Shown here piece after piece: positions 45,187 through 48,883 of a DNA stretch of 64,000 nucleotides. Position numbers and translations under genes: made by a program. The notes below the pieces were generated by a model, which saw only the letters and a list, made by a program, of their open reading frames with translations, was not told the DNA's origin and ran no database searches. Origin of the DNA: Planctomycetota bacterium (lineage in GTDB: Bacteria > Planctomycetota > Planctomycetia > Planctomycetales > Planctomycetaceae); contig JAQCEJ010000009.1 of NCBI GenBank assembly GCA_027618475.1, positions 1 through 64,000 of the forward strand. The letters are read 5' to 3'. Within the stretch, counting starts at the first letter, position 1, and each line of letters starts with the position of its first letter.

Positions 45187-45839
45187 TGCGGCGTCCTTGT
45201 TATTGATTATTCTGAGTGACGTCGAAGCCGACGAATCTCGGCTGACGACTGGGACCACTATGGTAGCGAACCTGTCGTCAGGATCAATCTTGCCGGGATT
45301 GACCCGGCACACGCGACGGTTTCAGATGTCAATTCGGCGTGAGAGGAACCTGACGTTCCTTAGCAAATTCGATAACCTGAGTTAACATTTTTCGCGTCGT
45401 TATCGGGCAAAAGATTCCATTTGGAAACATTTTGTGAGATTTGTTGAAATTCGCCACCATCACCGAATCCATTCAGAGAAAACAAGTTACGGCGATATCA
45501 ACACCGAAATGTTGTCCGTGAACCCGGCTTGGGTGTGAATCAGCGACGTCTACATCGTGCCATCGGCACTCGTCGTGCATTTTCACTGATCCGTTCTCAG
45601 TCAGTCGAGTGAATCACGACCGAGGATTAGCCCGCCGTTCATTACAAAACGGGGGCGTGCCATTGGAATTGACCTGCAGGTTTACGGTGATGACGTCGGC
45701 CGACGCCTTCACCAGACCCGAGACGATTCGTACGCATTCGTCCCGGGTCGACATCTCCGAAGAGTTAACACGTCTCTTGGGAAGATTCAACATGTTCAAT
45801 CACAAAACGACTCTCAAATATCGAAAAGGAACTCTCATT
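45187..45839. other. Intergenic region upstream of the first pilin-like gene
   Basis: About 650 bases between divergent genes. A palindrome TTCCATTTGGAA lies near 45415-45426. The ribosome-binding site AAGGA (45826-45830) serves the pilin-like gene. Longer in-frame starts for that gene back to 45609 add sequence without similarity. No other gene is supported. Confidence 0.45.
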
Positions 45840-46166
45840 ATGTTACGTAAACTGTGGAATGACGAAGCTGGTTTCATCGTTTCTGCCGAACTCGTCCTCG
45901 TGGCCACGATCCTGGTCATCGGCATGATCGTCGGACTGAGCGAAGTTCAACACGCTGTGGTTCAGGAACTGGGTGACGTCGGCGAAGCCATCGGCTCGGT
46001 CAACCAGAGCTACGGTTATACCGGTTTTTCCGCGAAAAAGAGCGGCTTGAAAGGTGGAATCAAGTCCTTCACCGCTGGTTCGCTGTTCAATGACATCACC
46101 GACGATTGCGACAACAACCAGTGCGATCTGGCCTGTGATCCCGCAATGCCGGAAGCCCCTAAATAA
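45840..46166 (+). CDS. Pilin-like small exported protein, copy 1
   Basis: This 108-residue protein begins MLRKLWNDEAGFIVSAEL, followed by a 20-residue hydrophobic helix (VLVATILVIGMIVGL) and a soluble tail ending in TDDCDNNQCDLACDPA. The basic leader, Gly-Phe junction and hydrophobic helix with an internal Glu resemble type IV (Flp/Tad) prepilins cleaved by a prepilin peptidase. The tail holds three Cys and several Asp. In Flp pilins the Glu is the fifth residue after the Gly; here it is the sixth. The ATG at 45840 is 9 bases after AAGGA. A strong terminator follows at 46214. Copy 2 downstream is about 70% identical by eye. Confidence 0.75.
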   Translation: MLRKLWNDEAGFIVSAELVLVATILVIGMIVGLSEVQHAVVQELGDVGEAIGSVNQSYGYTGFSAKKSGLKGGIKSFTAGSLFNDITDDCDNNQCDLACDPAMPEAPK

Positions 46167-46213
46167 GCATGATCACTTTCGAGTCTCTGGCTTGAAATGC
46201 AGAATGCGAAATC

Positions 46214-46249
46214 AAACACCCCTGAAGCGGTTGCTTCAGGGGTGTTTTC
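46214..46249 (+). terminator. Rho-independent terminator after pilin-like copy 1
   Basis: A perfect 14-base stem (46215-46228 with 46233-46246) with loop GGTT is followed by TTTT. It separates the two pilin-like genes, so each is its own transcript. Confidence 0.85.
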
Positions 46250-46576
46250 GTCTTTGCACTGTGAAGAAATTCGATCAGTGGGAAACACCGCTCTTGTCAA
46301 TTCACGTCAAGAGAGCTTTACAAAAACACGATTCGTCAAGTTATCATGTTTCCAACCGGATACAGTTTTCGTTCGAAGGTCCGATTATAACGGCTCGATA
46401 ATTCGCGTTCTGGACGAGAGTTACAGAATCTCGTCAGCCGCCGTACCAACGAGGCCGGCCCCTCTGCGACAGAATTGCCTCCGCTGTCGCCGTGATGGCA
46501 TCTCTCATGCAATTTCTCTCCTGCATCACTCGACTTGACGACTGTTGAACACTCAAAAAAATCGGAGAAAAACCAC

Positions 46577-46912
46577 ATGTTGAAATGCCTTTGGAACGAC
46601 GAACAGGGATTCATCGTCTCGGCGGAACTGATACTCGTAGCGACGATTCTTGTCATCGGACTCGTCGTCGGCATGAGCGAAGTGCAACACGCCGTCGTGC
46701 AGGAACTCAACGATGTCGGCGACGCGATCGGTTCGGTCAACCAGTCGTATGGATACAGCGGATTCTCTTCGAAAAAGAGTAACGGTAAGCTGAAGTCGTT
46801 CTTTTCGGGCTCGCGTTTCAACGATACGACTGACGACTGCGACAATAATCAATGCGATATCGCCTGCGATCCCGCCAGGCCGGAACAGCCGAAGGGACAT
46901 CACCACTACTAA
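46577..46912 (+). CDS. Pilin-like small exported protein, copy 2
   Basis: A 111-residue paralogue of the preceding gene: MLKCLWNDEQGFIVSAELIL, hydrophobic helix (VATILVIGLVVGM), conserved SEVQHAVVQEL and SVNQSYGY segments, and the Cys/Asp tail TDDCDNNQCDIACDP. It ends in a His-rich GHHHY absent from copy 1, and carries an extra Cys at position 4. The start at 46577 aligns with copy 1 and has GGAG upstream; an in-frame ATG at 46535 adds 14 residues. It has its own promoter region and terminator. The pair may form heteromeric pili or a surface fibre. No Tad secretion genes are in the window. Confidence 0.75.
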   Translation: MLKCLWNDEQGFIVSAELILVATILVIGLVVGMSEVQHAVVQELNDVGDAIGSVNQSYGYSGFSSKKSNGKLKSFFSGSRFNDTTDDCDNNQCDIACDPARPEQPKGHHHY

Positions 46913-46956
46913 TCGCTTCACTTTGCGAATCACCCATTCTCTCAGCTCGCCTCACG

Positions 46957-46999
46957 ACTCCCGTCACCCCGCTCAAGGGTGACGGGAGTTTTCTTTTTT
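46957..46999 (+). terminator. Rho-independent terminator after pilin-like copy 2
   Basis: A perfect 13-base stem (46957-46969 with 46977-46989), loop of 7, followed by TTTTCTTTTTT. It is a strong intrinsic terminator. Confidence 0.88.
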
Positions 47000-47515: not shown

Positions 47516-48883
47516 TTACGCAGCCGGATCGGCGTTGTCGGCTTCGGGTTTCGGCGGTGCCGAATCGGCAGGAACGCCGTTATCGGGAACCGGCTTGGCC
47601 GACTCGAACGTCGACGGGCTGCCGTCACTGGGAACGTTGCAATTACCGCCGGGGCAACTGCCGTTGCAATCTCCGCTCAGGCAGCATGTCTGTTGCGGAC
47701 AGACCTGCACCGGAACGATGCGGCAAACTTCGTACGGTTCCTGACGGCTGACGCAGCGGGCGACCATGCGGGTGCACGTGACAGGTTCTTCACGTGTCAC
47801 GCAACGGGCGACCCGTTGATTGACCGTGTATGGCTCCTGTCGAGTCACACACACAGGCACTTTGCAGACTTTCGTTTCGCAGACCATCCGGCAGGTCGTC
47901 ACCGGAATCTTGCGAACGCATTCTTCGGCGACCATGCGGCAGGTCTTGACCGGAACCTGACGGTTTACGGTTTCGCAGACCCAGCGGCACGTCTTAACCG
48001 GAACCTTGGTCACCACTTCTTCGGCGACCATCCGGCAGACCTGGTAGGGAACTTTTTCTACAATTTCACGCGGGCAGTAGCGAGTCACCTGCACCGGGCA
48101 GTTCTGGCGAACGACTTCTGTCACATACGTCGTCACCGGCACCTGACGTTCGCATACCTGTGGATTCCAGACGCGACGACAGGTGTAATATCCGGGGCAT
48201 TGCACCATGCAGGTGCGAGGCACGCCGCAGTCCCAGGTCACGCGCGGTACGGTCGGGCCGGGGTGGTACACTCGTTGAGTGACCCAGTTCCCCGTGGTAT
48301 AACGTTCGGTGCGACAGGTCGTCACCGGACGGCAAACCGTGTAGCAGCGAACCTGATTGACCGTTTCAGTCACCGGTTCCATCACGACGCGGCGGCATTC
48401 CCGCTCGACGGTTTCGGTCACGGGACGCATGACGGTGTGTCGGCATTCCCGTTCTGACGTTTCGACGACGGGACGACGCACGGTGTAGCTGCAATCCTTC
48501 ATGGTGGTTTCCCACACCGGACGCATCACCATATGACGTTCTTCGCGCTCGGTCGTTTCGTACACAGGTCGGCTGACTGTGTACTCTTTATCCTGGTATT
48601 GAGTCTCCGTCACGGTGCGGTAACATTGCACCTTACGATCCTCGTACACGATCTCATTCACGAGTCGATTGACCGTGTACTGTTGCGGTTCGTAAACCAT
48701 TTCGTTGACGGTGCGGTAACATGTCTCGCGTTCGACGCGACACGCAGTGTAGCATGCTACGGGGGCGCAAGAGTCGGTCGGACAACAGCCATAACGACCG
48801 GCACCGCAATAGCGACCGGCTTCAGCTGAATTTCCGGCAAGCAAGGCCAACGCAGCCACGATTGCCGTTACAATCAATCGCAT
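47516..48883 (-). CDS. Cysteine-rich YTV-repeat cell-wall protein
   Basis: This 455-residue exported protein has a signal peptide (LIVTAIVAALALLAGNSAEA) and about 40 cysteines. The body is a chain of short repeats such as YTVNRLVNEIVYEDR, YTVSRPVYETTERE, HTVMRPVTETVERE and VPVKTCRMVAEE, matching the YTV domain described in Rhodopirellula and found in isolated planctomycete cell walls. The periodic Tyr/Thr/Val strands and paired cysteines suggest a disulfide-linked beta structure. A Pro/Asp-rich tail (SAPPKPEADNADPAA) follows. ATG at 48883 has AGGAG 7 bases upstream; a strong terminator ends the transcript, so it is expressed alone. Its role is inferred as structural wall protein. Confidence 0.88.
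   Translation of the reverse strand: MRLIVTAIVAALALLAGNSAEAGRYCGAGRYGCCPTDSCAPVACYTACRVERETCYRTVNEMVYEPQQYTVNRLVNEIVYEDRKVQCYRTVTETQYQDKEYTVSRPVYETTEREERHMVMRPVWETTMKDCSYTVRRPVVETSERECRHTVMRPVTETVERECRRVVMEPVTETVNQVRCYTVCRPVTTCRTERYTTGNWVTQRVYHPGPTVPRVTWDCGVPRTCMVQCPGYYTCRRVWNPQVCERQVPVTTYVTEVVRQNCPVQVTRYCPREIVEKVPYQVCRMVAEEVVTKVPVKTCRWVCETVNRQVPVKTCRMVAEECVRKIPVTTCRMVCETKVCKVPVCVTRQEPYTVNQRVARCVTREEPVTCTRMVARCVSRQEPYEVCRIVPVQVCPQQTCCLSGDCNGSCPGGNCNVPSDGSPSTFESAKPVPDNGVPADSAPPKPEADNADPAA

Follow-up and report, generated by a model that had tools for sequence, protein, structure and literature searches.

Two genes on the forward strand, ORF1 (45840..46166, 108 aa) and ORF2 (46577..46912, 111 aa), encode small pilin-like proteins in the 64 kb window, that is, the whole stretch of DNA analysed; all features given below in window coordinates lie on the same strand unless stated. 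SD-like sequences precede both starts, AAGGAA at 45826-45831 for the ATG at 45840 and GGAG at 46564-46567 for the ATG at 46577. For ORF2 this ATG was preferred over an upstream TTG, and the match in the own-genome search also begins at 46577. The two proteins share ~79% identity, with a core dN/dS of 0.07. Each gene was found to have its own intrinsic terminator, as had been proposed from the sequence alone, with a 15-pair stem at 46214..46247 for ORF1 and a 14-pair stem at 46956..46990 for ORF2. Hairpins of at least 10 pairs were likewise present 3′ of 80 of 164 genes of the family described below, against 44 of 452 control ORFs (P = 5 × 10−24). No clear promoter motif was seen in the aligned upstream regions of five near paralogues, which share a short stretch before the start. 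Convergent with ORF2, on the reverse strand, lies a gene (47516-48883) for a YTV-repeat protein (PF07639, four stretches) of the Cys-rich planctomycete wall type. A functional tie between this protein and the gene pair was rejected, as no such YTV gene was found beside relatives at other loci.

Both proteins begin with the pattern ML-x-x-LWNDE-x-G followed by FIVSAEL. The predicted leaders, MLRKLWNDEAG in ORF1 (45840..45872) and MLKCLWNDEQG in ORF2 (46577..46609), end at Gly11, and the conserved Glu17 (45888..45890 and 46625..46627, respectively) is the sixth residue after this Gly in both, as the sequence-only reading had noted. The same reading had called the leaders basic; neither is net basic, and both carry an acidic DE at −3/−2. 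To place these features in context, a core profile was built from 12 paralogues in the window's own genome, the window pair included, and this identified 166 distinct family members with the same junction, mostly from other genomes and all within Planctomycetota. The acidic pair at −3/−2 is conserved across the family, and Gly occupies −1 in 158 of 161 distinct members. Position +6 is Glu in 145 and Asp in 6 of 165 distinct members, position +7 is Leu in 142 and Tyr in 5, and position +1 varies (F 114, V 18, A 15, plus others). Flp/Tad pilins as a rule have a leader whose last residue is Gly, with a hydrophobic helix after it, and prepilin processing depends on this Gly, not on the Glu (PMC4471445). 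With a Gly that hardly ever changes and a variable residue after it, the sequences are most naturally read as cleaved behind the Gly, which places the Glu at +6 (E6), and we infer that both proteins would be cleaved after Gly11. Cleavage between Phe and Ile, which would return the Glu to +5, was rejected on the same grounds, the Phe position being filled by F, V, A, S, G or I. In GG variants such as GGIISTEL and GGLLSAEY the cleavage position is ambiguous. Mature ORF1 is predicted to have 97 aa and a mass of ~10 kDa, the range for the two proteins being 97-100 aa. Several leaders of the window's branch, including that of ORF2 (46577-46609) and others on contig C43 of the same genome, contain a Cys (MLKCLW, MLCKLW, MLCKMW) that cleavage would remove.

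Bacterial type IV pilins are said to keep Glu5 almost without exception, and whether this residue serves subunit docking or charge neutralisation is debated. The window proteins had been likened to Flp pilins whose Glu is shifted one residue further along, and profile alignment agreed with this. Using hhalign, the family aligned to canonical E5 planctomycete Flp-type pilins with E = 1 × 10−21, the only gap being one residue long and placed precisely between the Gly and the Glu, and the comparison set comprising seven E5-type or intermediate sequences, three of them ambiguous GG forms. One canonical planctomycete pilin of the comparison matches PF04964 (Flp_Fap) at 3.5 × 10−4, and the E5 pilin on contig C37 of the window's genome gave a weak match below the cut-off. 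Neither ORF1 nor ORF2 matched any Pfam or NCBIfam family, the cut-offs for PF04964 and PF16982 not being reached. Pfam and NCBIfam searches with 53 and 29 relatives returned weak, unrelated matches only, e.g. staphylococcal IsaB, and these were judged to be due to chance because they covered the helix region only and had poor E-values; three of the 53 matched Flp1_like (PF16982) weakly, with a best E of 0.098, which was not significant. The missing database match would suit ordinary small single-span membrane proteins whose pilin-like junction is coincidental. This explanation is very improbable given the near-invariant Gly and Glu, the homology to E5 pilins, and the recurrent placement in Tad operons and the co-occurrence across genomes described below.

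The family shares with Flp/Tad pilins (PF04964; Caulobacter PilA type) the short leader with its Gly end and preceding acidic pair, the buried Glu, the long hydrophobic helix and, in relatives, gene neighbours encoding CpaB, TadA, TadB, TadC and an A24 peptidase. It differs in having Glu at +6 rather than +5, Leu in place of the following Tyr, no PF04964 match, and ~40 additional C-terminal residues with a predicted β-hairpin and a Cys/Asp tail. The canonical planctomycete Flp-type pilins (RGAVFVEYLLL, ~60 aa, e.g. on C37, or locus L093, 18829-19005) have a homologous helix and occur in the same Tad clusters, but are E5-Y6 and lack the C-terminal extension. A core hydrogen-bond network in the Tad pilus of Caulobacter is formed by the Glu together with the next Tyr, residues that have been called conserved across Tad pilins (PMC11067988). 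A literature search found no prior description of planctomycete Tad/Flp pilins or of Glu6 pilins.

Structure prediction with AlphaFold2 gave ORF1 one long N-terminal helix (residues 12-52, 45873..45995; pLDDT 88-98 over most of it), a β-hairpin (residues 58-83, 46011..46088; pLDDT ~70-80) and a flexible tail (pLDDT ~60), with a mean pLDDT of 79. A Tad-linked relative had a similar, less certain layout (mean pLDDT 71, hairpin at low confidence). Tad pilins are reported without a β-hairpin, whereas the E6 hairpin is predicted in the two members at moderate to low confidence. No solved structure was matched by PDB sequence search or by Foldseek. In the tail, TDDCDNNQCDLACDP of ORF1 (46098..46142) and TDDCDNNQCDIACDP of ORF2 (46829..46873) share the motif TDDCDNNQCD[LI]ACDP. 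The motif was thus confirmed in both proteins, though it does not end them as had been claimed; it lies near the C-terminus, followed by 7 and 12 residues. Across 53 members Asp88 is invariant and Cys90 at least 90% conserved (ORF1 numbering). Most E6 tails contain 2-4 Cys, and each window protein has three. The tail may form a disulfide, either internal or intermolecular, or may bind metal, both of which the sequence-only reading had suggested as possibilities. An EF-hand calcium site was rejected because loop position 1 is not conserved (D, E, A or T), and the loop length varies among relatives.

The window's own genome (5.93 Mb, 218 contigs) yielded 13 matches including the window pair (~12 paralogues). 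Three copies with 84-88% identity lie on contig C43, and further copies on C16, C152 (two), C63, C53 and C193, plus two remote ones on C84 and C37. The search for prepilin peptidase and Tad genes that the sequence-only reading had called for found both elsewhere in the genome (four A24 peptidases; Tad genes on C84, C37 and C53) and no Tad gene within the 64 kb window. On C84, a Glu-less paralogue (GSADYLFLIL) directly heads CpaB/RcpC, TadA (T2SSE), TadB and TadC (T2SSF). On C37, the canonical short pilin, with Glu at +5, adjoins a T2SSF protein and a TadE-like ORF, and a TadE/G-like protein lies close to it. C53 carries one A24 peptidase gene in a cluster that also encodes CpaB, a TadZ-like ATPase and a secretin. 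Adjoining it is the gene for an authentic Flp pilin that has Glu at +5 and scores above the PF04964 cut-off. Short E5 Flp pilins of the canonical type thus occur on C53 and C37, and a further one on C195. Type VII secretion-like genes also adjoin the Tad genes on C84: directly behind CpaB-TadA-TadB-TadC comes a group made up of one WXG100-like gene, a pair of small ORFs and a gene for a 1444-aa FtsK/SpoIIIE ATPase (L063, 1825-7390). By blast, these genes had no counterparts in the other Tad-linked loci.

A scan of 84,980 species genomes with short peptide patterns, by which remote relatives in other phyla would be missed, found 48 loci, all titled as planctomycetes or bacterial MAGs. In a 392-genome sample of the phylum, matches were confined to the window's class, where the family is present in 123 of 298 genomes. 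A single genome may carry up to 24 members. The proposal of a distinct planctomycete pilin group is supported by this distribution. Core dN/dS values in the family are 0.015-0.14, and the copies are therefore under purifying selection. The window pair and its nearest relatives occur as scattered single genes or tandem arrays away from Tad genes, and one genome (L158, L159) contains a trio linked to Tad genes as well as seven genes in an unlinked array. At L159 (7147-11552), seven or more E6 pilin genes stand in tandem, and their products are nearly identical in the helix and differ in the tail.

Of the 48 loci, 15 have Tad genes no more than 10 kb away from a family member (P = 2 × 10−14 if ~2% of random 20-kb stretches carry Tad genes, a chance linkage assumed at 1-2% from the four TadA-like loci in the window's own genome). 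The operon order was E6 pilin, Glu-less pilin, (prepilin peptidase), CpaB, TadA, TadB, TadC, and the Tad genes at L101, L091 and L093 were confirmed by Pfam. In Blastopirellula marina (L101) the row reads E6, Glu-less, E6 and E6 pilins, A24 peptidase, CpaB, TadA, TadB and TadC. The same order was seen in 11 of 15 further distinct loci, which were picked as strong profile matches and are not a random sample. In a set of 101 genomes from the taxonomic family to which the window belongs, two or more CpaB copies were present in 72 of 79 E6-positive and 2 of 22 E6-negative genomes (P = 3 × 10−13; P = 6 × 10−11 when restricted to genomes at least 90% complete), though these P values overstate the certainty because related genomes are not independent. 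Since relatives lie directly 5′ of Tad assembly genes, the window proteins are very probably variant subunits of a Tad pilus, and we put at about 0.8 the probability that the products of both genes are prepilin variants of the Tad (Flp, type IVb/IVc) kind.

The lack of Tad linkage in the window's branch, together with the Cys/Asp-rich tails and the adjacent Cys-rich YTV wall protein, would also fit proteins that are processed by prepilin peptidase and never polymerised, serving instead as membrane-anchored, disulfide-linked wall or surface proteins of a cystine-rich planctomycete envelope. However, the YTV neighbour is not shared by other loci, which speaks against this, and the helix and junction in the window's branch are under the same constraint as in Tad-linked members; we consider such a role unlikely.

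The Glu-less paralogues have no acidic residue at the junction (GVASAYGLIL, GAVYASQMML, GSVSPFATVL), form a supported clade and lie next to E6 genes in Tad operons (L101, 9424-9813; L116, 10471-10995; L042, 1001-1291; L012). This group may be a minor or tip pilin. At L090 (5837-8363), four pilin types, E5 (VFVEY), D6 (TTD), Glu-less and E6, occur in one cluster. The core tree was built on so few alignment columns that the order of the E5, E6 and Glu-less groups could not be read from it.

It is possible, if less plausible than a shaft role, that the E6 proteins are themselves minor, adaptor or tip pilins on a shaft of canonical short E5 Flp pilins. Canonical Flp genes coexist with them in the window's genome, many relatives have one VFVEY pilin near TadE beside the E6 set, and in Myxococcus the Flp-type minor pilins KilK and KilO are tip adaptors on a KilP shaft (PMC12075869). 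As proposed here for E6, the Myxococcus Kil system relies on a single Tad machine for several Flp-type pilins; its set, unlike E6, consists of one major and 14 minor pilins (PMC12075869). A minor role fits less well, however, with the copy number per genome and the strong separate terminators, with Tad operons that have no nearby E5 pilin (L154, L158, L100, L163, L167), and with the Glu-less paralogue of the same operons, which is the better minor-pilin candidate. On the strength of the copy number and of the operons without a nearby E5 gene, we lean towards a shaft role and infer that E6 pilins would be major rather than minor subunits.

If the window proteins are Tad prepilin variants, their 11-residue leader would be cut off after Gly11 by an A24 prepilin peptidase whose gene lies elsewhere in the genome, and the hydrophobic helix would then hold the mature protein in the inner membrane. 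The Tad machine (CpaB, TadA, TadB, TadC), encoded on other contigs, would then add the subunits to a filament, or mix them into one, with the β-hairpin and flexible Cys/Asp tail presumably exposed on its surface. Relative to canonical Flp pilins, the helix would be longer by one residue in the segment that separates the cleavage site from the buried Glu. With the Glu shifted and the Tyr replaced by Leu, subunit contacts would have to differ from the Caulobacter Glu5-Tyr6 network, if a filament is made. The window's branch, multiplied as scattered single genes with their own terminators, could supply alternative subunits for one shared machine. More speculatively, and with rather low probability, E6 pilins may build a separate class of Tad filament with a subunit register unlike that of all known type IV pili, in which interchangeable, tail-varied subunits produce varied fibre surfaces, possibly the 12-nm crateriform or 6-nm stalk fibres.

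The E6 family, which lacks the Tyr, is linked to ordinary Tad machinery and often lies beside E5 and Glu-less paralogues, offers a natural test of Glu function. In the literature consulted, no protein was found assigned to the planctomycete surface fibres seen by microscopy, and the family provides named candidate genes for them.
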